NCBI RefSeq assembly: GCF_000178835.2
Contig: NC_015275.1
Location: 1,633,001 to 1,697,000 of the forward strand
From: Cellulosilyticum lentocellum DSM 5427
Lineage (GTDB): Bacteria > Bacillota > Clostridia > Lachnospirales > Cellulosilyticaceae
Direction of reading: 5' to 3'
Length of the DNA stretch: 64,000 nt
Below the pieces are notes generated by a model, which was not told where the DNA came from, ran no database searches, and was given only the letters and a program-made list of their open reading frames with translations. Positions 31,934 to 54,946 of this stretch are shown piece after piece. Within the stretch, counting starts at the first letter, position 1. Each line of letters begins with the position of its first letter. The position numbers and the translations under genes are program-made.

Positions 31934-33187
31934 ATGAAGATATTAATCATAGGAAATGGTGGGAGAGAATCGGCCATTGCACATACAGTGAGACGTTTTC
32001 ATCCAGAAGCTGAGATTTTTGTAGCACCAGGTAATGGGGGAACAGAAGAGGCTTTTACAAATATTCCTATTAAAGTAGAGGAACTTGAAGCATTAGCCAA
32101 CTTTGCAGAAGAAAAGCAAGTGGATCTTACTATTGTAGGGCCAGAAGTACCACTTGTATTAGGTATTGTAGATGTTTTTGAAAAAAGAGGTTTAAATATT
32201 TTTGGGCCTAATAAAGAGTGTGCTCAATTTGAAGGAAGTAAACACTTTACAAAACAGTTTTTAATTCGTAATGATATTCCAACAGCAGCATACGCTAGCT
32301 TTAAAAGAGATGCAGTAGAAGCTTGTGTAGCAGAAGCAAAAAACTTTAGTTTACCAGTAGTTGTTAAAGCAGATGGTTTAGCTGCAGGAAAAGGAGTATT
32401 AATTTGTGAGACATATGAAGATGCAGAAGCTGCCATAAGAGAAATCTTTAGTGGTAAATTTGCTGAAGCGGGTAGCACTATCGTATTAGAAGAATTCCTA
32501 ACAGGAACAGAAGCCTCCCTTCTTTGCTTCGTAGATGGGGATAGTATTGTACCAATGGAAACAGCTAGAGACTATAAACGTGCTCTAGATAATGACAAAG
32601 GGCTCAACACAGGTGGTATGGGTGGCTTCTCACCAAATCCAATTATCACAGCAGAAGTTAAAGCCAATATTGATACACAAATTCTAGAGCCAATTATAAG
32701 TGGCTTCAAGAAAGAGAATCTTAAATTTAAAGGGGTGCTTTTCATCGGCTTAATGATTGAAAACAATATACCAAAAGTGCTAGAATTCAATGTACGTTTT
32801 GGTGATCCAGAAACTCAAAGTGTACTTCCAAGATTAAAAACAGATCTAATAGAAATCATGCAAGCTTGCATCGATGGCAACCTTGCTAGTACACCTATTA
32901 AATGGGATGAAAGACAAAGTGTGACTTTAGTACTTGCTAGCAAAGGTTATCCAGAAACCTCTCATAAAGGTGATGTTATTACAGGTCTTGATGATTTAAA
33001 TGAAGATACTTATTTATTCCATGCTGGCACCAAAAAAGTAAATGGGACTATTCAAACAGATGGTGGACGTGTATTAGCCATTACAAGTTTAGGGGCTAGC
33101 TTAAGAGAGGCTAGAGCGACTATATATGAAGAAGTAAAAAAGATTGAGTTTGATGGTATGCAATACAGAAGTGATATAGCAAAATAG
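31934..33187 (+). CDS. purD: GAR synthetase PurD
   Basis: 417 aa, ATP-grasp ligase joining glycine to phosphoribosylamine. GNGGRESAIAHTVRR, FGPNKECAQFEGSKHFTKQF, VVKADGLAAGKGV and NVRFGDPETQ are present. It is full length. A phage-like element has inserted at its last six codons, and the integration core restores the stop. Therefore its natural terminator now lies 21.8 kb away. Confidence 0.95.
   Translation: MKILIIGNGGRESAIAHTVRRFHPEAEIFVAPGNGGTEEAFTNIPIKVEELEALANFAEEKQVDLTIVGPEVPLVLGIVDVFEKRGLNIFGPNKECAQFEGSKHFTKQFLIRNDIPTAAYASFKRDAVEACVAEAKNFSLPVVVKADGLAAGKGVLICETYEDAEAAIREIFSGKFAEAGSTIVLEEFLTGTEASLLCFVDGDSIVPMETARDYKRALDNDKGLNTGGMGGFSPNPIITAEVKANIDTQILEPIISGFKKENLKFKGVLFIGLMIENNIPKVLEFNVRFGDPETQSVLPRLKTDLIEIMQACIDGNLASTPIKWDERQSVTLVLASKGYPETSHKGDVITGLDDLNEDTYLFHAGTKKVNGTIQTDGGRVLAITSLGASLREARATIYEEVKKIEFDGMQYRSDIAK
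33167..33186 (+). other. attL core (end of purD)
   Basis: AGAAGTGATATAGCAAAATA, identical to the sequence at 54927-54946. It encodes the purD C-terminus (RSDIAK) and the first two bases of its stop codon. Confidence 0.92.
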
Positions 33188-33279: not shown

Positions 33280-34401
33280 TTATCCTTTTTTCTTTATTTT
33301 AGAATAGATATCATCAAATTCAGTAGCAACTCGTTTATCCCTTTCTTCAACCGTATGAGTGTAAAATTTAAGAGTTGTAGCAATACTTTTATGCCCTAGA
33401 CGTTTGCTTACTGTAGCTATGTCCATATTATTATTAATCATTAAGGTAGCATGTATATGCCTTAAATCATGAAATCGTATTAGTGGAAGGTCATTGGCGA
33501 TTAAGACCTCTCTTAAGTGATTACTAAGTGTATGGCTATTAATAGGCTTGTTTTTTGATATGGTGAAGATAAGAGCATTTATAGGTATAGCAGGCATACT
33601 GTCAATATGCTCCTTAATAGCTTTCATTACAAATTCAGGAGCATATATCTTTCTTTTGGATCCACTTGTTTTAGTAGAGGTGAATAAGTCCTTTTCATCA
33701 TCATAAAGGCCTATTTGCTTATCAACAGTAATTGTATTTAGGTTGAAATCTATATCTTTAAGTGTTAGTGCCCTTATCTCACTATTTCTAAGACCACACC
33801 CAACAGCTAGAAAGAAAGCTGCTCGATGTAATGGCCATTTATCATTTTCATATAGTTTAATTAGTGTTTGAATATTATCTAAACTCATTAACTCATCTAA
33901 GCTTTTACTTTCTGCTTGTCCTAGTTCAATATGCTTATAGGGAGAATTAGAGATAATCCCCCATTTTTCAGCAAGAGATAAACAAGTATTAAGTTTAGAC
34001 ATTATTACTCTGACAGTATTGTATTTATACTCTTCTAAAAGGTCAGTAGCAAATTCTTGAATGTCTATAGGTTTTATATCACATAGTTTCATATCGTCAA
34101 ATGCAGGTCCGATATGGTTGTCATATGAATTTCTATAAGTGATACGTGAATTAGCTTTGAGTTTATCAATATACTCTCGCTGAACCTTTTTGTATAAATC
34201 CTTAAATAACATATTTTCACTACTACCCATCATGCCTTTATCAATTTGGTATATAAAATCTTTCTCAGCTTGCTCAGCTTCTTTTTTGTTTCCAAAGAAG
34301 GTAGTTTCATATTTATGACCATTCCTAGTAACACGTATTCTCCATTTAGCTGGCTTTCTGCCGGATTTATCTTCTAAATTAGTTCTTTTTGTTAGTGCCA
34401 T
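33280..34401 (-). CDS. Tyrosine-recombinase integrase
   Basis: 373 aa phage integrase. Order: an Arm-type DNA-binding N-terminus (WRIRVTRNGHKYETTFFGNK), a SAM-like core-binding domain (about 65-160), and a catalytic domain. Catalytic residues are Arg in GCGLRNSEIRALTL, His and Arg in HDLRHIHATL, His in LGHKSIATTL and Tyr in KFYTHT. The gene abuts attL and follows the repressor with no gap, so the two form one transcript. Confidence 0.95.
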   Translation of the reverse strand: MALTKRTNLEDKSGRKPAKWRIRVTRNGHKYETTFFGNKKEAEQAEKDFIYQIDKGMMGSSENMLFKDLYKKVQREYIDKLKANSRITYRNSYDNHIGPAFDDMKLCDIKPIDIQEFATDLLEEYKYNTVRVIMSKLNTCLSLAEKWGIISNSPYKHIELGQAESKSLDELMSLDNIQTLIKLYENDKWPLHRAAFFLAVGCGLRNSEIRALTLKDIDFNLNTITVDKQIGLYDDEKDLFTSTKTSGSKRKIYAPEFVMKAIKEHIDSMPAIPINALIFTISKNKPINSHTLSNHLREVLIANDLPLIRFHDLRHIHATLMINNNMDIATVSKRLGHKSIATTLKFYTHTVEERDKRVATEFDDIYSKIKKKG

Positions 34402-34971
34402 TTACTCACCTTCTTTAGAATTCAATGTAGTAAGTTCGTGTAGCTTATATTTTATAAATTCATTTATTGCATTTATAGCATCTAGGTATTTATTCTTATC
34501 AACATTTTCATGTTTTATTGGCAGGTTAGAATATGTTAAAAGTTCCGATAAAGATTCTAGTAATCTTTCTGTATGGTAGGAATAGCGCGTAACAAAATCT
34601 TTTTCATTCTTATTTAAAGAAATATATATACTTCCCACTAATGAACTTATAGGTACTTCTAACCCTGAATAGCCACGTGTATTTTCCTCAATTTCCTTGA
34701 TACTATTTAGATCAGTATCCATCATGCCACGCCAATAATCTACTGTTATATTTTTTTGAGTATCACTTACAATATCAGATATTGTAACATCTAAAATTTC
34801 ACAGATTTTTTCAATAGTTTTAAGGTTTGGCTCTCGATTGTTATTTTCATAATTTGAATAAGTTGTACGATTAACACCTATTTTTTCAGCCATATATGCT
34901 TGACTAAATCCTTTGGATTTCCTAATTTCTTTTATTCTAGTTCCTATTTGTATAAAATCATTTATTCCCAA
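34402..34971 (-). CDS. Phage CI-like XRE repressor
   Basis: 189 aa. HTH_3 domain at residues 9-66 (RIKEIRKSKGFSQAYMAEKI, GVNRTTYSNYENNNREPNL) and an uncharacterised helical C-terminus with no visible LexA-type Ser/Lys protease motif. It is divergent from the cro-like gene across a region with two 16-bp palindromes. It should maintain the lysogenic state; SOS self-cleavage is not predicted from sequence. Confidence 0.88.
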   Translation of the reverse strand: MGINDFIQIGTRIKEIRKSKGFSQAYMAEKIGVNRTTYSNYENNNREPNLKTIEKICEILDVTISDIVSDTQKNITVDYWRGMMDTDLNSIKEIEENTRGYSGLEVPISSLVGSIYISLNKNEKDFVTRYSYHTERLLESLSELLTYSNLPIKHENVDKNKYLDAINAINEFIKYKLHELTTLNSKEGE

Positions 34972-38277: not shown

Positions 38278-38457
38278 ATGGAGACAAATGAACTAATATC
38301 AAAAACAGTTGAAGTATTAAAGGAATTGCCAGACCAAAAGATAGATTATGAGAAAGTAGAGGCTTTCTTAAATAATGAGAACGTGACAGAAGAACAGAAA
38401 GATTTATTTAGACTATTTATAAGAATAGAAAAATCACGAAGACAAGTTGCATGTTAA
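38278..38457 (+). CDS. Small phage protein, unknown
   Basis: 59 aa from ATG 38278 (METNELISKTVEVLKELPDQ...), chosen for ATAAGGGG directly upstream; a longer frame starts at 38242. Helical and acidic, basic C-terminus. No family recognised. Confidence 0.55.
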   Translation: METNELISKTVEVLKELPDQKIDYEKVEAFLNNENVTEEQKDLFRLFIRIEKSRRQVAC

Positions 38458-38507
38458 ATTACCTTACATCGCTTTTGGGGTACAAAGGAAGAGGAGGAGT
38501 GAAGCTG

Positions 38508-38930
38508 ATGAAGTTGTTAGATGTTAATATGTTTAATCAAATAAGGGTACCAGGTAGTAATCATATTGAAAACATAAATAGGATAGATAAGGCAAATAGA
38601 GATAGTGGACATGCTCCTATATTTGGTTTAATTGCTGCTTTTCAATATGGACTTATGATTGGCAAAAGGGAAGAAAGGGCCAAGAGAACAGAGGATAAAA
38701 TTGAAAGCATATTAATAACTGATGAAGCGACTATTGATATGTATCATATTTTTCATGAAAAGATGCTTGAATTAGGGGTAGAAGATGATGAAGTTGAATC
38801 TTTTATTGAGAAATACAAAGAAAGCTTACTGGGCATATTTGATGGGAATGTTCCTGACTATGTTATAAGTTGCGTATACAGAGCTAAAGAGATTGAAATT
38901 TTAGCAAGAAAAGAAGTAGCTGCTAAATGA
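38508..38930 (+). CDS. Phage protein, unknown
   Basis: 140 aa from ATG 38508 (MKLLDVNMFNQIRVPGSNHI), with GAGGAGG about 12 bp upstream. Contains a small hydrophobic stretch (FGLIAAFQYGLMIGK) and an acidic helical C-terminus. Not recognised. Confidence 0.6.
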   Translation: MKLLDVNMFNQIRVPGSNHIENINRIDKANRDSGHAPIFGLIAAFQYGLMIGKREERAKRTEDKIESILITDEATIDMYHIFHEKMLELGVEDDEVESFIEKYKESLLGIFDGNVPDYVISCVYRAKEIEILARKEVAAK

Positions 38931-38968
38931 TTAATTAGAACTTGAATAATAAATTAGGAGGGACAGAC

Positions 38969-39040
38969 ATGAGGATTAGAGCCGAACCATACTCAGTATT
39001 GATTACTACATATGGAGGGATAGAGAATGAAAGACTCTAA
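38969..39040 (+). CDS. Leader-peptide-like small ORF
   Basis: 23 codons (MRIRAEPYSVLITTYGGIENERL) with an ideal AGGAGGG site 6 bp before the ATG. It overlaps the following regulator start by 14 bp and contains that gene's own GGAGGG. It may couple translation of the regulator. Confidence 0.45.
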   Translation: MRIRAEPYSVLITTYGGIENERL

Positions 39041-39467
39041 GTATAGTAAAGTAGAGGACTTACTTTATAGCTACCCAATGCTAAAGGTAAGTGTAGCTAA
39101 TCTTAAACTTGACCTTGAAGAAGCTGTGGAAGAGCTTCAACTAGACATGCAAAGTAAAGATAAAGTAAGTTCCTCTAAATACGATAATGCCCCTAATAAA
39201 GAGGCTGCCAATATTGTAGCACAAGATAGAGTGAAGCGTATAGAAAATAGTATCAGAAATAAAGAGCGTACTATCAAGAAGATAGACAATGCTTTAACTG
39301 TTCTATCAGAAAAAGATAGGAAGGTAATAGAATTGTATTATTTTGAAAAGATGATGTTTGAAGGTGTTATGAATTACCTGGAGATTAGTACAAGCAATGT
39401 TACGTTTCATAAGAAGAATGCATTGTCTATATTGCAAGATGTTCTTTTGATAGAAGGTGAGGAGTAA
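39027..39467 (+). CDS. Sigma-like/ArpU-type late regulator, first copy
   Basis: 146 aa. Two coiled-coil-like helices, then a sigma-region-4-like helix-turn-helix (ALTVLSEKDRKVIELYYFEK and MNYLEISTSNVTFHKKNALS). Proteins of this type sit before the packaging genes of many Bacillota phages and switch on late transcription. A second, diverged copy follows immediately. Confidence 0.75.
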   Translation: MKDSKYSKVEDLLYSYPMLKVSVANLKLDLEEAVEELQLDMQSKDKVSSSKYDNAPNKEAANIVAQDRVKRIENSIRNKERTIKKIDNALTVLSEKDRKVIELYYFEKMMFEGVMNYLEISTSNVTFHKKNALSILQDVLLIEGEE

Positions 39468-39468
39468 A

Positions 39469-39921
39469 ATGGACACCACAAAAGAAAAGATTAAGGCTAT
39501 TGAAGGATTATTATTTAGCTATTCAGATATTGATGTTCGTGTAGAGTCTATGAGAACAGAGATAGATATAAGACAGAACGACTATGATACCTTATATGGA
39601 AACAATGATAACCAAAGAGCAAGCACACCAACAAACCAAACAATTAGTCTTGTAGAAAGTAAGGTGACAAACAAGGAAGCTAGGATTGAAAGCCTTAAGA
39701 GAAAGATTGATATAGAGTTGCTTAACAAGAGGTTAATTGATAATGCTATGAAGGTGCTAAATGAAGAGGACAGAAAGTTTATTGAGGATAGATATTTCAA
39801 GAAGATAAGTCCTAGTGCATTAGCAGACCATAAATACTACTGTAGTCATTCTTATATTTTTATTAGAAGTAAGAACATCATAAAGAATCAATTAGCGGAA
39901 TACATACGTATTATTCAATAG
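39469..39921 (+). CDS. Sigma-like/ArpU-type late regulator, second copy
   Basis: 150 aa from ATG 39469 (GGTGAGGAG upstream; a GTG start at 39457 is possible). Same plan as the first copy: IEGLLFSYSDIDVRVESM, coiled coil, NAMKVLNEEDRKFIEDRYFK, HTH end. The pair arose by tandem duplication. Confidence 0.72.
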   Translation: MDTTKEKIKAIEGLLFSYSDIDVRVESMRTEIDIRQNDYDTLYGNNDNQRASTPTNQTISLVESKVTNKEARIESLKRKIDIELLNKRLIDNAMKVLNEEDRKFIEDRYFKKISPSALADHKYYCSHSYIFIRSKNIIKNQLAEYIRIIQ

Positions 39922-39978
39922 CATGTAAGCACGTATAATCGTCATGGACAAGCCTAAAGTTTGAGTGGTAGTTAGTGA

Positions 39979-40160
39979 GGGTAGAGGGGTATAAACCTCT
40001 ACAACACTCGTGAGAGAAGTGTAAAAGGTACTGTGGGAGGATTAAAAGGACTGCGGGTGCGCGATGCCACATATTTTTTCTAGTTGCCAAAAATTTTTTC
40101 GCCGATTTCCTTTCCGCTTTGAAGGAGGGGGAGACTATAGAGAGGGAGAAAGGATTATTT
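39979..40160 (+). other. Structured GC-richer noncoding block, cos-like
   Basis: Hairpins GTAGAGG/CCTCTAC (39981-40002) and ACACT/AGTGT (40004-40022) are followed by a GC-richer stretch (GGACTGCGGGTGCGCGATGC) and two T6 runs (40073-40140). It lies where cos-phages carry their packaging site, just before terS. No gene is visible in 39922-40249. The packaging role is inferred from position and texture only. Confidence 0.4.
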
Positions 40161-40249
40161 AATAATTAATAAGGTATAACATAGTTGTCAGATTAAATTA
40201 TTTGAAGTAAAAGATGAAATTTTAAATATGAAAAAGGAGAAATGGAATC

Positions 40250-40975
40250 ATGCAAAATACAGAAAAAATGATTAGTGAATTTTTGGAACAAATTGAGAGG
40301 GATAAAGTATTAGCAGCTGAGAAACTTAATGCAATGGAAGAACAAAAATGTGTTTTAGATAGGGAGCGTAGTGAGATTTCAAAAGCAGTAATCCGTTTGG
40401 AGAATGAGGGGGACCAAGAAGCAGTACAAAAACTTACTAAAGAGTTATCTAAGAGAGTTAATGATATTAGCGTATTAGCTAGCAAGATTGAAGCTTACAA
40501 AGAGATGGGAAACAACTATGAAGCCGAAGCTGAAAAGGTATTTGCTTTAGCTGCTAAGGAATTTAATGAGGAGCAAGTGCAAAGAGAAAAGAAATGTAGG
40601 GAAGGGATTAGTAAAGCTGAAGTGGAAGTGAAAGAAGCAGAAAAAGTACTTGAAGAAAAAAACAAGATATTAGAAGAACAAGAAAGAATCTTTGATTCAG
40701 TTAAATATGACAAGCGCAGATTAATTGAATTTCAATTACCTGGAATTATGAAATACATGCCCAGAAAAATTAGAGATTTTAATCCTAATGTTAAGGTTAC
40801 TGTACCTACAAAAGTTCCAGGAGGGACTGTATATAGAGATAACTATGTAGAGTTCTATGGACAAGAAGGACTGGAGGCACAACTTAATTACTATTATCAA
40901 AAAGTATTAAATGGTGATGGTAAAGAGTCGGTACCAAAAAGAAAATCAGTAGTTGATAAAATTTTAGGTCGTTAG
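40250..40975 (+). CDS. Coiled-coil protein, scaffold-like position
   Basis: 241 aa. Residues 1-150 are an almost continuous Glu/Lys-rich coiled coil. Residues 160-241 are a folded tail (RRLIEFQLPGIMKYMPRKIR, EFYGQEGLEAQLNYYYQKVL). It lies where packaging genes would be expected. It could be a scaffold or an inhibitor of a helper phage, but I do not recognise it. GGAG lies 10 bp before the ATG. Confidence 0.6.
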   Translation: MQNTEKMISEFLEQIERDKVLAAEKLNAMEEQKCVLDRERSEISKAVIRLENEGDQEAVQKLTKELSKRVNDISVLASKIEAYKEMGNNYEAEAEKVFALAAKEFNEEQVQREKKCREGISKAEVEVKEAEKVLEEKNKILEEQERIFDSVKYDKRRLIEFQLPGIMKYMPRKIRDFNPNVKVTVPTKVPGGTVYRDNYVEFYGQEGLEAQLNYYYQKVLNGDGKESVPKRKSVVDKILGR

Positions 40976-40984
40976 GTGATTGGC

Positions 40985-41161
40985 ATGAAAACAATACCTA
41001 TAAGAGCTAGTGATAGTACGATAGAAAAGATTAATTACATAAGAGAAGCATTACAATGCTCAAGAGCTGATGTATTAGAAGTATGTGCAACAATTGTATA
41101 TTCGGCAATCGTTGCAGAGCAGAAAAAAGAAGGGAGAAAGCACAATGAATTTCATGGATAG
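40985..41161 (+). CDS. Small ribbon-helix-helix-like protein
   Basis: 58 aa from ATG 40985 (TAGGTG upstream). MKTIPIRASDSTIEKINYIR fits an RHH beta-strand plus first helix, then a second helix. Its end overlaps the next start by 17 bp. Confidence 0.5.
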   Translation: MKTIPIRASDSTIEKINYIREALQCSRADVLEVCATIVYSAIVAEQKKEGRKHNEFHG

Positions 41162-41708
41162 GATGACGGAAATTTTAAATGAGGAACGAAGAAGGCACGG
41201 AAAACCTCAGTTAAACGGTGCTGAAATAGAAGGCGCAAAAGATTACTTTGCATCAAAGTTAGAAGAGATAAAGGATACAGAATGGTATAAATCAGCTTCA
41301 GCGGAGGATAAGTGCCGTCTTAATGATTTTGTCATTGGGAAAACGGAGCAAAGACAGAGCATGCCTACCTGTAGTATCAATTCAAATAATGGGGGTATTA
41401 AGGTAATGAATGAAAAAGAGCAAATTAATAGCTTTAGGGGTTTAGGGTATGACAACATTATTGAGGATGGTTTAAGTAAAGGTTTATCAGCAGGAGATAT
41501 TGCAATTAAAATTCTTAATGAAATACCGGCTAATAGATACGTTGATCAGCAGAGAGCTATTAATTTATTAGTTGAAGCTAGTAAGAAGATAAGAAAAACA
41601 AATAATGACATAGGGAATATAACTAAAGCATCTAATGTTTCTGAGCAACAACAAGCAGTTAATTTATTAGTCAATGCAGCTAAATCAATTACAGGAGGTA
41701 CAAAATAA
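41145..41708 (+). CDS. Phage protein with internal duplication, unknown
   Basis: 187 aa from ATG 41145 (AGGGAG upstream). The C-terminus has a repeat: DQQRAINLLVEASKKI and EQQQAVNLLVNAAKSI. It is coupled to the next gene by TAATG overlap. Possibly a virion or scaffold-like protein by position; family unknown. Confidence 0.6.
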   Translation: MNFMDRMTEILNEERRRHGKPQLNGAEIEGAKDYFASKLEEIKDTEWYKSASAEDKCRLNDFVIGKTEQRQSMPTCSINSNNGGIKVMNEKEQINSFRGLGYDNIIEDGLSKGLSAGDIAIKILNEIPANRYVDQQRAINLLVEASKKIRKTNNDIGNITKASNVSEQQQAVNLLVNAAKSITGGTK

Positions 41709-42067
41709 TGGAGTATGCATGTAAACAAGTAGGAGAATATAAGCCAGACAAGCTTATTGCAGGTAACACACATCCCATAGATACAAAAGGGATAACATTG
41801 TCTATGGGAAGTGGTACATATTTAAGAGGGACTTTGATTAATAGGCAAGGAACTATATGCAACATTCAAATAGTGGAAGAGGAAGAAGTGCTTGATCAAC
41901 CCATTGGTATTTTGACTGATGATATAAATCTTTCAGAAACAGATGTAACAAAAGTAGTTATTTATATTAGTGGAGAGTTTAGAGCAAGTGAAATTATTGT
42001 AGGTGATGACGTTACCATTGATGATTTTGAAAGAGATTTAAGAATGCTAGGTATCTTCCTTAAATGA
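41708..42067 (+). CDS. Head decoration protein (gpD-like)
   Basis: 119 aa, beta-rich. GTYLRGTLINRQGTICNIQI, QPIGILTDDINLSETDVTKV and VVIYISGEFRASEIIV match the pattern of lambda gpD-like capsid decoration proteins (gain tag, 'initial value plus alternative' loop). These trimers stabilise expanded capsids. No capsid gene is present to go with it, which suggests use of another phage's head. Confidence 0.65.
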   Translation: MEYACKQVGEYKPDKLIAGNTHPIDTKGITLSMGSGTYLRGTLINRQGTICNIQIVEEEEVLDQPIGILTDDINLSETDVTKVVIYISGEFRASEIIVGDDVTIDDFERDLRMLGIFLK

Positions 42068-42082
42068 TAAAGGAGAATAAAC

Positions 42083-42343
42083 ATGGAATTAGAGTTTTAT
42101 GGCATGATAACGGACATCATGTACTGTAAAGAATATGAAATATGTAAATTTACTATAAGAATGCTGAGCAAGAGACAGTATAGTGTAAGATGTACAATCG
42201 TAAGAAGAAATTTAGATCTATATAAAAAGCTAGAACTAGGTAAGATGGTTAGAGTGGTGGGAGAGCTAACCGAGTATAGAAAGCCTTCTAGTGATGGAAC
42301 TGAGTTAGTTGGTAATAATTTTTATGTATCTAGTATTGATTAG
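42083..42343 (+). CDS. Small OB-fold-like protein
   Basis: 86 aa with alternating strands (MELEFYGMITDIMYCKEYEI, GKMVRVVGELTEYRKPSSDG) reminiscent of an OB fold such as single-strand DNA-binding proteins. AAAGGAG lies before the start. Function uncertain. Confidence 0.5.
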   Translation: MELEFYGMITDIMYCKEYEICKFTIRMLSKRQYSVRCTIVRRNLDLYKKLELGKMVRVVGELTEYRKPSSDGTELVGNNFYVSSID

Positions 42344-42353
42344 TAATGAAATA

Positions 42354-42386
42354 CATAAAGGGCTTAGTGTAACAGCTAGGCCTTTA
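42354..42386 (+). terminator. Hairpin before tail chaperone
   Basis: AAAGGGCTTAG/CTAGGCCTTTA stem with a TATTAAT tail. Probably a weak terminator or attenuator. Confidence 0.5.
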
Positions 42387-42405
42387 TTAATAGGAGGAAT
42401 TTGAA

Positions 42406-42783
42406 GTGAATAAACAAGAAGATGAACTATGTATAAGTATTACTTTATTTGATGAAGATGATAGCAAGAGAAAAGAATACAGGACTTCAAGTATAAGTGT
42501 TGAGAGTTATGAACAGGCTTATGAACTGAATGAGAAGATGCTTGAAGGTGTTTGTAATAAGGATGATCTATTACATGAATTGATTAATTTTATAATAGAG
42601 TTTTTTGATAACCAATTTACATATCAAGATGTGGTATTCGGTATTAAACCAGAAGATTTAAGTAAGCTAATAAGTGTTTTGTTTATGATATGTGGAAGCC
42701 AGATGGCTTTTGAAGGACAACAAGAAAAAGCAGAAAGATTATTAGGAGCAGCAACTAACTTATACAATGAGGTGGTGAAATAA
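42406..42783 (+). CDS. Probable tail assembly chaperone
   Basis: 125 aa, GTG start after AGGAGG. LHELINFIIEFFDNQFTYQD followed by LSKLISVLFMIC resembles tail assembly chaperones of siphophages. It lies one base before the tape measure gene, its invariable place. No slippery frameshift site is obvious at its end. Confidence 0.7.
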   Translation: MNKQEDELCISITLFDEDDSKRKEYRTSSISVESYEQAYELNEKMLEGVCNKDDLLHELINFIIEFFDNQFTYQDVVFGIKPEDLSKLISVLFMICGSQMAFEGQQEKAERLLGAATNLYNEVVK

Positions 42784-50924: not shown

Positions 50925-51022
50925 CACGAATTCGTGTTATACTATGAAAATACACGAATTCGTGGTAGCGGAATGCACGTACACGAATTCGTGTAGTAAA
51001 TGAAAAGATTAATGAATTCGTA
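50925..51022 (+). promoter_or_regulatory. Array of four palindromic operators
   Basis: CACGAATTCGTG occurs exactly at 50925-50936, 50953-50964 and 50982-50993. A weaker copy, ATGAATTCGTA, lies at 51012-51022. Centres are 28, 29 and 29 bp apart. GTTATACTAT (TATACT -10) lies between the first two. The array ends 15 bp before the HTH-DUF488 gene, whose HTH is the natural candidate to bind it. Confidence 0.8.
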
Positions 51023-51037
51023 AATTGGAGTGATTAT

Positions 51038-51685
51038 ATGAGTGAATTAAATAATGTTATTACTATTGCAGAAGCTGCTCAAACTTGGGATATGGCGACT
51101 TCTACATTACGCCATGCTATCAGCGATAATAAATTCAATGAGAGTGAAGTAAAAAAGAGCGGAGGTACATGGCTAATTCTTAAAACGGCTATGTATTCAA
51201 AATATGGTGACCCTAATGTAAAAAAGGGAAAAAGAGATGTAACCACACTATATACTATAGGTTATGAAGGGTTAACTATAGAATCATTTATATCTAGACT
51301 AAAAAAAGCAGGTGTGAACTATATTTTAGATGTAAGGGAGATACCTTTAAGTAGGAAAAAAGGGTTTTCCAAAAACACATTAGCAGAGGAACTAAAAAAA
51401 GCAGATATAAATTATAGTCATTTTAAAGTACTTGGAAGCCCTAAAGATATTAGAGAAAAACTAAAGGCTACACATGACTATGATAGTTTCTTTAAAGATT
51501 ATAAAAGGTATATATCTACACAGAAAGAAACTGTGGAGATATTAAATTCTGCAATAAGTGCTAATTTAAATATGAAGTTTTGCTTACTATGCTTTGAGAA
51601 AGACTATACTACATGTCACAGAATAGCTTTAGCACAGGAACTTATTAAGGGGAAGGAAGATAAGATGTGTATTAATAATTTATAA
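51038..51685 (+). CDS. HTH-DUF488 fusion protein
   Basis: 215 aa. Residues 1-60: a helix-turn-helix (ITIAEAAQTWDMATSTLRHA, GGTWLILKTAM). Residues 68-205: DUF488, with TIGYEGLTIESFI, DVREIPLSRKKGFSKNTLAE, FKVLGSPKDIREKL and the conserved Cys pair LLCFEKDYTTCHR. DUF488 is an uncharacterised, possibly catalytic family. The fusion suggests a self-regulating enzyme; TGGAG lies upstream. The stop is 26 bp before the partner gene. Confidence 0.85.
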   Translation: MSELNNVITIAEAAQTWDMATSTLRHAISDNKFNESEVKKSGGTWLILKTAMYSKYGDPNVKKGKRDVTTLYTIGYEGLTIESFISRLKKAGVNYILDVREIPLSRKKGFSKNTLAEELKKADINYSHFKVLGSPKDIREKLKATHDYDSFFKDYKRYISTQKETVEILNSAISANLNMKFCLLCFEKDYTTCHRIALAQELIKGKEDKMCINNL

Positions 51686-51711
51686 TAGTGGTATTTAGGG
51701 GAGGAAACTAA

Positions 51712-52560
51712 ATGATTCCAGATTTGCAGAAGAAAAAGATGTTGATGATTGTAAAAACCTATCCTACACCTAGCATAAAATATGGGGAAACAGTTTGTAC
51801 TGCAGGAATAACGGATGAAGGTGAATGGATAAGATTATATCCTTTAAGATATAGAAGATTAAATAAAAATCAGCAATTTAATAAATACACATGGATAGAA
51901 GCGACAGTTTATAGAAATCCTAAAGATTTAAGGGTGGAAAGCTATAAAATTGACGAGTCAACATTGAAAGTGTTAAATAAACTAGATGCAAAAAAAGACA
52001 TGGATGAACGTAAGAAATGGATATTACCATTGTGCAAAAATTCACTAGAAGAAGTTATAGAATCACATCAACAATTCAATACTTCCTTAGGAATATTCCA
52101 ACCTAAAGAAGTACTGGATCTAGTAATTACACCAGCAGATAAAAACTGGTCTTCAGAACAAGAAATGTGTTTAAACCAAATGGGGTTATTTGAAGATCAA
52201 AATATAGTGAAATTACAGAAAGTTCCATGGGATTTCTCATTTAAGTTTACCTGTAATAATGGTTGCAAATCTGTACATAAGTTAAAAATAACAGACTGGG
52301 AGATTTATCAAACGTATAGGAATTTTAAAAAATATTATGGAGATGAAAAAGTAGCATTAAAGAAGCTATCAGAAAAATGGATGAACTATTTTAATAATGA
52401 TAATAAAGATTCATATTTTATTGTTGGTACGGTGCATCCATGGCCTACTTTTATAATATTAGGAGTAGTATCATATTCTAAACAAAAAGTGAATAAAGAA
52501 AAAATCAAGACTAGTAGTAAAGTTAATAATCCTATAGAAGGACAGATAACGTTTATATAA
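51712..52560 (+). CDS. Conserved partner of DUF488 protein
   Basis: 282 aa, soluble. The N-terminus (MLMIVKTYPTPSIKYGETVC, then TAGITDEGEWIRLYPLRYR) and C-terminus (FIVGTVHPWPTFIILGVVSY) are strongly patterned and recall a family I have seen next to DUF488 genes, but no function is known to me. A central Cys/His group (FTCNNGCKSVHKLK) could bind metal. GGGGAGG before the start; in one operon with the HTH-DUF488 gene. Confidence 0.65.
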   Translation: MIPDLQKKKMLMIVKTYPTPSIKYGETVCTAGITDEGEWIRLYPLRYRRLNKNQQFNKYTWIEATVYRNPKDLRVESYKIDESTLKVLNKLDAKKDMDERKKWILPLCKNSLEEVIESHQQFNTSLGIFQPKEVLDLVITPADKNWSSEQEMCLNQMGLFEDQNIVKLQKVPWDFSFKFTCNNGCKSVHKLKITDWEIYQTYRNFKKYYGDEKVALKKLSEKWMNYFNNDNKDSYFIVGTVHPWPTFIILGVVSYSKQKVNKEKIKTSSKVNNPIEGQITFI

Positions 52561-52577
52561 AAGAATAGTTTAATCTA

Positions 52578-52606
52578 GAGCCATGGGTTATTCATGGCTC
52601 ATTTTG
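52578..52606 (+). terminator. Terminator of DUF488 operon
   Basis: GAGCCATG/CATGGCTC perfect 8-bp stem followed by ATTTTG. Confidence 0.8.
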
Positions 52607-53079: not shown

Positions 53080-53547
53080 ATGGCAAATTTAGAAGTAAAC
53101 GTGGAATATATAGAGCAACAGACGATATACGGACTATGGCAGAAATCAAACGATAAAACAATTTCTAAAGACATAAAATCTCTTTCCCAAAAATACCATA
53201 TGGCGGTTTCAGTACCAGAGGGAGAGGTACTTCCCTATTTTGTTCTATCTAGAAACTACGATGAACAAAGTAACAATTTTGAAATGTTTATAGGCAGTAC
53301 TTTTGATAAAGACGGCTTGGAAACCTTTATACTCCCTGCCAGTGAGTATGCTAAAATTACAGTAAAGCCGAAACTTGGCTTTTTGTGGGGTGCTTCCATT
53401 GGAGAAGCAAAACGATATTTTTACACAAAATGGCTACCTAAAAATTCTTATGAAGCTTTGAATATGGAATATGAATATCACACAGAAAAAAGCACTGGAA
53501 ATCAGCCAACGATTGATATTATTTTTGCTATTCAAAGAAAGTCCTAA
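53080..53547 (+). CDS. GyrI-like/effector-binding domain protein
   Basis: 155 aa. Pattern VEYIEQQTIYGLWQKS...YFVLSRNYDEQSNNFEMFIG...ASEYAKITVKPKLGFLWG, then a final strand matches stand-alone GyrI-like (AraC effector-binding, Cass2-like) domains. These bind hydrophobic small molecules and some inhibit gyrase. AAAGGAG before the ATG. Its role in the element is unknown. Confidence 0.72.
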   Translation: MANLEVNVEYIEQQTIYGLWQKSNDKTISKDIKSLSQKYHMAVSVPEGEVLPYFVLSRNYDEQSNNFEMFIGSTFDKDGLETFILPASEYAKITVKPKLGFLWGASIGEAKRYFYTKWLPKNSYEALNMEYEYHTEKSTGNQPTIDIIFAIQRKS

Positions 53548-54926: not shown

Positions 54927-54946
54927 AGAAGTGATATAGCAAAATA
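54927..54946 (+). other. attR core
   Basis: AGAAGTGATATAGCAAAATA, identical to attL. Followed by A, so the reading frame RSDIAK-stop is kept with TAA. Confidence 0.92.

Follow-up and report, generated by a model that had tools for sequence, protein, structure and literature searches.

A DUF488 protein with an N-terminal HTH_59 domain and its downstream partner of 282 amino acids (aa) form, in our preferred reading, a prophage-borne, self-repressing variant of the candidate system PDC-M19 that protects the lysogen, and we assign a probability of roughly 0.55 to this reading as a whole. The module is located in a window of 64,000 nucleotides (the whole stretch of DNA analyzed here) from the chromosome of Cellulosilyticum lentocellum DSM 5427. 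The product of the first gene would be a repressor-effector fusion, whose HTH_59 head, presumably as a dimer, would bind the palindromes CACGARTTCGTG and whose DUF488 body would be a rhodanese/PTP-like cysteine domain. The extended -10 element and the transcript start of the operon coincide in part with these palindromes, so that the operon would repress itself. The tandem-OB-fold product of the second gene probably binds single-stranded nucleic acid, and both proteins would act jointly on such molecules, with replication intermediates of competing phages as the likely target, thus protecting the lysogen. PDC-M19 is widespread, and the tandem-OB prediction for M19B, the exchangeable heads of the DUF488 proteins, and a concrete operator provide three testable handles on its mechanism and control. 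The proposal of a defense function for PDC-M19 was already known. New are the promoter-located HTH_59 operator, the prediction of OB folds in M19B, and the picture of exchangeable heads.

Table 1. Features of the module and of the surrounding prophage (window coordinates)
Feature	Position	Strand	Remark
Likely attL, 20-bp repeat	33167..33186	.	3' end of purD
Operator copy 1, exact CACGAATTCGTG	50925..50936	.	final TG one base before the -10 TATACT
Putative -10 TATACT of the module promoter	50938..50943	+	extended -10 with the TG of copy 1: TGtTATACT
Operator copy 2, exact CACGAATTCGTG	50953..50964	.	approximately at the expected transcription start
Operator copy 3, exact CACGAATTCGTG	50982..50993	.	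inside the 16-bp perfect palindrome TACACGAATTCGTGTA, 50980-50995
Weak fourth copy AATGAATTCGTA	51011..51022	.	3 mismatches; directly 5' of the ribosome-binding site
PDC-M19A variant, ORF1	51038..51685	+	215 aa; HTH_59 residues 1-58, DUF488 80-200
PDC-M19B, ORF2	51712..52560	+	282 aa; predicted tandem-OB-fold, ssDNA-binding type, pLDDT 92.6
Stem-loop 3' of the module, possible weak terminator	52578..52600	+	9-bp stem, tail ATTTTG
Likely attR, identical 20-bp repeat	54927..54946	.	module inside the repeats

An earlier reading of the sequence alone had described an HTH-DUF488 fusion followed by a 282-aa partner, and the Pfam domains and ORF positions bear this out. ORF1 matches HTH_59 (PF20038, E value 5.8e-14, 52.3 bits versus a cut-off of 27) and DUF488 (PF04343, 9.4e-28, 97.7 bits versus 22.2), and it scores barely above the cut-off for PF22751, the "Active DUF488-N3 subclade" (2.8e-6, 28.1 versus 27). 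It shares the domain and the motif LLCFEKD..CHR with the DUF488 family (PF04343/PF22751) but differs in that it carries a DNA-binding head and has an OB-fold protein as its partner. The conserved Cys pair that had been pointed out in this motif withstood comparison: both C185 and C193 are retained in each of 46 DUF488 partners, as are G75, Y76, D98, R100, Y126, G133, E187, H194, and R195. Given these residues and a weak match to the rhodanese/PTP-like fold, a catalytic role of the pair is plausible. Structure prediction modeled the DUF488 body at about 90-98 and the HTH part poorly. In Foldseek searches with the DUF488 model, the best E value (0.008) fell to SRP GTPases, and rhodanese/PTP-like matches had E values of 0.07 or worse. 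The better-shaped matches were PTP-fold proteins, i.e., the DUF442 phosphatase 3gxh (probability of 0.98, E value 0.067), SsoPTP (probability of 0.94), and KAP, none of which is significant alone or reaches an E value of ≤0.001. The modeled domain is weakly similar to rhodanese/PTP-fold enzymes. The CX5R active-site loop of this superfamily was not found in the 46 sequences; DUF488 instead has C185-X9-R195 with the second Cys at position 193, and because of this difference, membership in the superfamily is not claimed.

M19B starts 26 bp downstream on the same strand and has no Pfam match. Its confident model contains two OB folds, and among both solved structures and viral models the leading matches are tandem-OB binders of ssDNA or dsDNA: Teb1, RPA, TEBP, CST, and HIN-200 are the best among solved structures, with RecO and SSB ranking lower, and the named top matches among viral models are baculovirus LEF-3, an ssDNA-binding protein. 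The predicted fold resembles that of the tandem OB-fold ssDNA-binding proteins (Teb1, RPA, TEBP, HIN-200, and LEF-3), but sequence similarity to them is not detectable and the TM-scores are low (0.2-0.4), so that M19B is assigned to a fold class and not to a specific homologue. Within these terms, the placement of M19B among tandem-OB-fold proteins of the ssDNA-binding type is a high-confidence prediction. The end of the module, which had been regarded as closed by a terminator, fits this description in part: the hairpin is genuine (-14.3 kcal/mol, z -4.9), but with its short T tail it did not pass a terminator scan.

Both proteins match the PADLOC-DB profiles of PDC-M19, and their genes lie side by side, in agreement with the catalogue. 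The M19B profile (PDLC04508, 6.9e-72) is covered from position 2 to 263 of 269, whereas M19A profiles are matched over the DUF488 part alone (142-292 of 294 in PDLC04505, 7.2e-41; 81-227 of 234); here, HTH_59 takes the place of the N-terminal part that M19A usually has, and an operator array is added. According to a later article, which cites the source, PDC systems were put forward by Payne and colleagues in a preprint on "guilt by embedding" (cited in PMC12988326), and most of them remain untested (PMC12988326). Our literature search found no paper naming PDC-M19 and no experimental report of its anti-phage activity. M19B occurs in 7 Gordonia phage records, 25 plasmid records including those of Sulfolobus, 48 viral contigs, and at least 487 places in a species-level genome collection; among Bacillota, it is present in 12 of 399 genomes, and in the family of the host bacterium in 1 of 24. 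The viral contigs yielded nothing to a single-protein M19B search and required an alignment query; in the genome collection, a six-sequence alignment worked where one of 16 sequences had proved too diverse.

An M19B ORF was detectable in 144 of the 149 loci examined, and DUF488 adjoins it in 137 of these 144, proportions that are not population estimates since the genome list comprises the best 80 of at least 487 matches. At least three of the seven loci without DUF488 are truncated or near contig ends. The search for the pair across genomes that the sequence-only reading had proposed has thus been run, and the refuting outcome that it named, i.e., genes that are rarely adjacent elsewhere, did not occur. 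DUF488 precedes M19B in 110 loci, 23 pairs are convergent, and M19B comes first in 4, with listed gaps of at most 246 bp, mostly below 30 bp; the retention of adjacency across three gene orders argues for a joint function. Such pairs span bacteria, archaeal plasmids, phages, and prophages. In Gordonia phage Eviarto (L016:3033-5424), one of several temperate Gordonia phages, M19B (gp43) lies near the integrase, between gp44, the "immunity repressor," and the convergent DUF488 gene gp42. The idea that gp44 is itself an HTH-DUF488 protein was rejected, as gp44 is a separate HTH protein and DUF488 is gp42.

A role of the pair in phage defense, as proposed by the catalogue for this candidate system, is plausible. 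Neighbors of 46 chromosomal homologues matched 107 defense families (PADLOC, 1e-15) versus 41 for an equal number of control genes, a comparison that counts families, not genes, and whose control genomes are not taxon-matched. The former include several type II and III methyltransferases, DarG, DruA, and PDC-S04, and the control matches are mostly one PD-T4-6-type gene. This modest enrichment agrees with the catalogue's guess without proving defense. A possible, if less probable, explanation is a module for nucleic acid repair, recombination, or modification, in which an OB-fold ssDNA binder and a cysteine enzyme serve the mobile element or the host instead of defense. The resemblance of the OB folds to RPA, RecO, and LEF-3, the broad spread over plasmids, phages, and chromosomes of bacteria and archaea, and the position beside the integrase and immunity region of temperate Gordonia phages are all in line with such a function. 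However, PADLOC lists the pair as a defense candidate, and both its patchy occurrence in Bacillota and neighborhoods enriched in restriction-modification, DarG, and Druantia genes are easier to reconcile with a conflict system than with a housekeeping one.

The N-terminal domain of the DUF488 proteins is, judged from their sequences, exchangeable. Among 131 distinct M19A sequences, which remained after allowing for loci that represent the same record twice, 75 carry an extra N-terminal region and 56 have no head domain. The heads include 12 weak SocA/Panacea matches (E value of ≤0.01, best 1.4e-4), 3 HTH_59, 2 XRE-type, and 1 ParB domain. Since HTH_59 is found on just 3 of 75 heads, i.e., those of the window and of two loci from phage sequence (L025 and L026), this form is a rare variant. 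A head of 140-160 aa with the motif YDFVPYKYG..SF and a weak match to the SocA/Panacea antitoxin domain, e.g., in L005-L007, L011, and L012, is the commonest DUF488 fusion in the examined set. On the Sulfolobus plasmid pSOG1 (L021:3936-5864), the gene directly in front of M19B encodes a ParB-HTH-DUF488 fusion, so that its annotation as a partition protein may be wrong. A 2025 study (PMC12704722) reported CTP binding by an archaeal protein in which a ParB fold is joined to DUF488-HTH; as in the window, DUF488 is joined to a DNA-binding head, but that head is a CTP-binding ParB domain, whereas HTH_59 has no nucleotide fold.

These heads, which resemble the SocA/Panacea antitoxin domain or are HTHs, together with the two-gene autoregulated architecture, would also suit a toxin-antitoxin-like module with one toxic part that is restrained by the other part or by the N-terminal head, and with operators for autoregulation. 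We consider this unlikely: the Panacea matches lie under the Pfam cut-off where it is known (L011, 21.5 versus 25.7 bits), head domains are lacking in the 56 sequences mentioned above, and the convergent order of 23 loci is unusual for such operons. It is doubtful, too, that PDC-M19 is a modular immune platform with a DUF488/tandem-OB core acting on invading single-stranded nucleic acid and exchangeable DNA-binding or Panacea-like heads; the head of the present variant would be a repressor, and phage DNA engaging the core would pull the protein off its operators and thereby amplify expression upon infection.

Returning to the self-repressing PDC-M19 variant, its regulatory part is founded on the row of palindromes in front of ORF1. 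Three exact copies and one weak copy with start-to-start distances of 28, 29, and 29 bp were found just as previously described (Table 1). The exact 12-mer CACGAATTCGTG occurs at three places in the whole genome of 4,714,237 bases, all of them in this array, compared to a chance expectation of about 0.14 copies from base composition. The promoter of the module is missing from the output of a generic promoter scan, and its -35 element is weak; the same scan does call the equivalent promoters in L025, L026, and L165. The palindromes are best read as the operator of the HTH_59 domain itself, and occlusion of RNA polymerase, i.e., autorepression, is the simplest reading of putative sites that overlap a promoter, so that the DNA-binding head of M19A probably switches off its own promoter via this row. 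That the palindromes instead act as RNA, with a leader hairpin between copies 2 and 3, is very improbable, as the strong leader fold (-27.4 kcal/mol, z -4.8) involves inter-copy pairing that is an automatic outcome of repeated palindromes, copy 1 is upstream of the expected transcription start, other HTH_59 genes bear one or two copies at the same -10 position, and no Rfam match was found.

The operator recurs in the only two distinct HTH_59-DUF488 orthologues that were found, L025 and L026 (the latter being the same stretch as L073), with a protein identity of about 54%. In each, CACGA[AG]TTCGTG or a close variant of it stands three times 5' of the gene, and the multiplicity of copies is conserved. 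Their spacing is not: with 28-21 and 21-27 bp versus 28-29-29 bp in the window, a constant distance fails as a conserved feature, and because the interval varies from 2.0 to 2.8 turns, the argument for co-operative binding at a fixed phase of 2.7 turns falls. At least two neighboring palindromes were detected in only three of 2.9 million viral contigs, two of which are the orthologues; the third (L153) is a GC-rich repeat unrelated to the operator. Among 399 Bacillota genomes, the array is confined to the promoter described here, apart from one coding repeat.

HTH_59 genes without DUF488 also bear the site, with two copies in L165, one in L196, and a weaker one in L163. HTH_59 proteins (PF20038; phrog_2655 "excisionase") have the same DNA-binding domain, and relatives share the palindrome at the promoter, but most are small stand-alone or phage proteins lacking DUF488. 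When six HTH_59 promoters, three of them without DUF488, are aligned on the palindrome, the -10 hexamers (TATACT, TACAAT, TACAAT, TATGAT, TATGCT, and TATAAT) abut it, or in L026 its decayed first copy, in identical register, and five of the six have an extended -10 whose TG is supplied by the palindrome. In 5 of 52 HTH_59 loci, including both orthologues, the 200 bp upstream contain a site that matches at 11 or more of the 12 positions (masked control pieces: mean 0.38, maximum 3); two versions of this tally differ by one locus, since the window's own is included in only one of them. The site is missing from most of the 52 loci, including most of those with distant HTH_59 genes; the operator may apply to part of the family. 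No described binding site for HTH_59 was found in the literature search. In the reverse direction, the site combined with a -10 gave 17 matches in viral contigs, of which one precedes an HTH_59 gene and two precede small XRE regulators, and several resemble chance, e.g., one before an apparent Microviridae capsid gene; as most precede other genes, a single site is not diagnostic. In the viral contigs L255 and L260, TTCACGAATTCGTGATATAAT stands before a small XRE regulator in the same site-and--10 layout with an unrelated HTH.

The module is enclosed by a prophage, which spans about 21.8 kb from one 20-bp repeat to the other, with an integrase and a CI-like repressor at the left end (33280-34971), replication genes, and genes for a head decoration protein, a head-tail adaptor, and a tape measure protein. 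An NlpC/P60 gene lies just beyond the right repeat. The prophage proteins that were scanned include no recognizable terminase, portal, or capsid, for which reason the prophage may be a remnant, or a satellite. In phage sequence, both orthologues are located directly 3' of endolysin/holin genes, a usual place for accessory cargo. The earlier suggestion of a prophage cargo module that regulates itself is supported by an operator that recurs at promoters and by the nearly constant adjacency of the two families, which are often found on mobile elements. The head region of the prophage (38451-42783), comprising the head decoration and head-tail adaptor proteins, is very short. A second 20-bp repeat, GGGACAAATTTAGGACAAAT (33226 and 54792), is a possible arm site of the integrase, and the right end of the prophage additionally encodes a GyrI-like/Cass2 ligand-binding protein (53080-53547).
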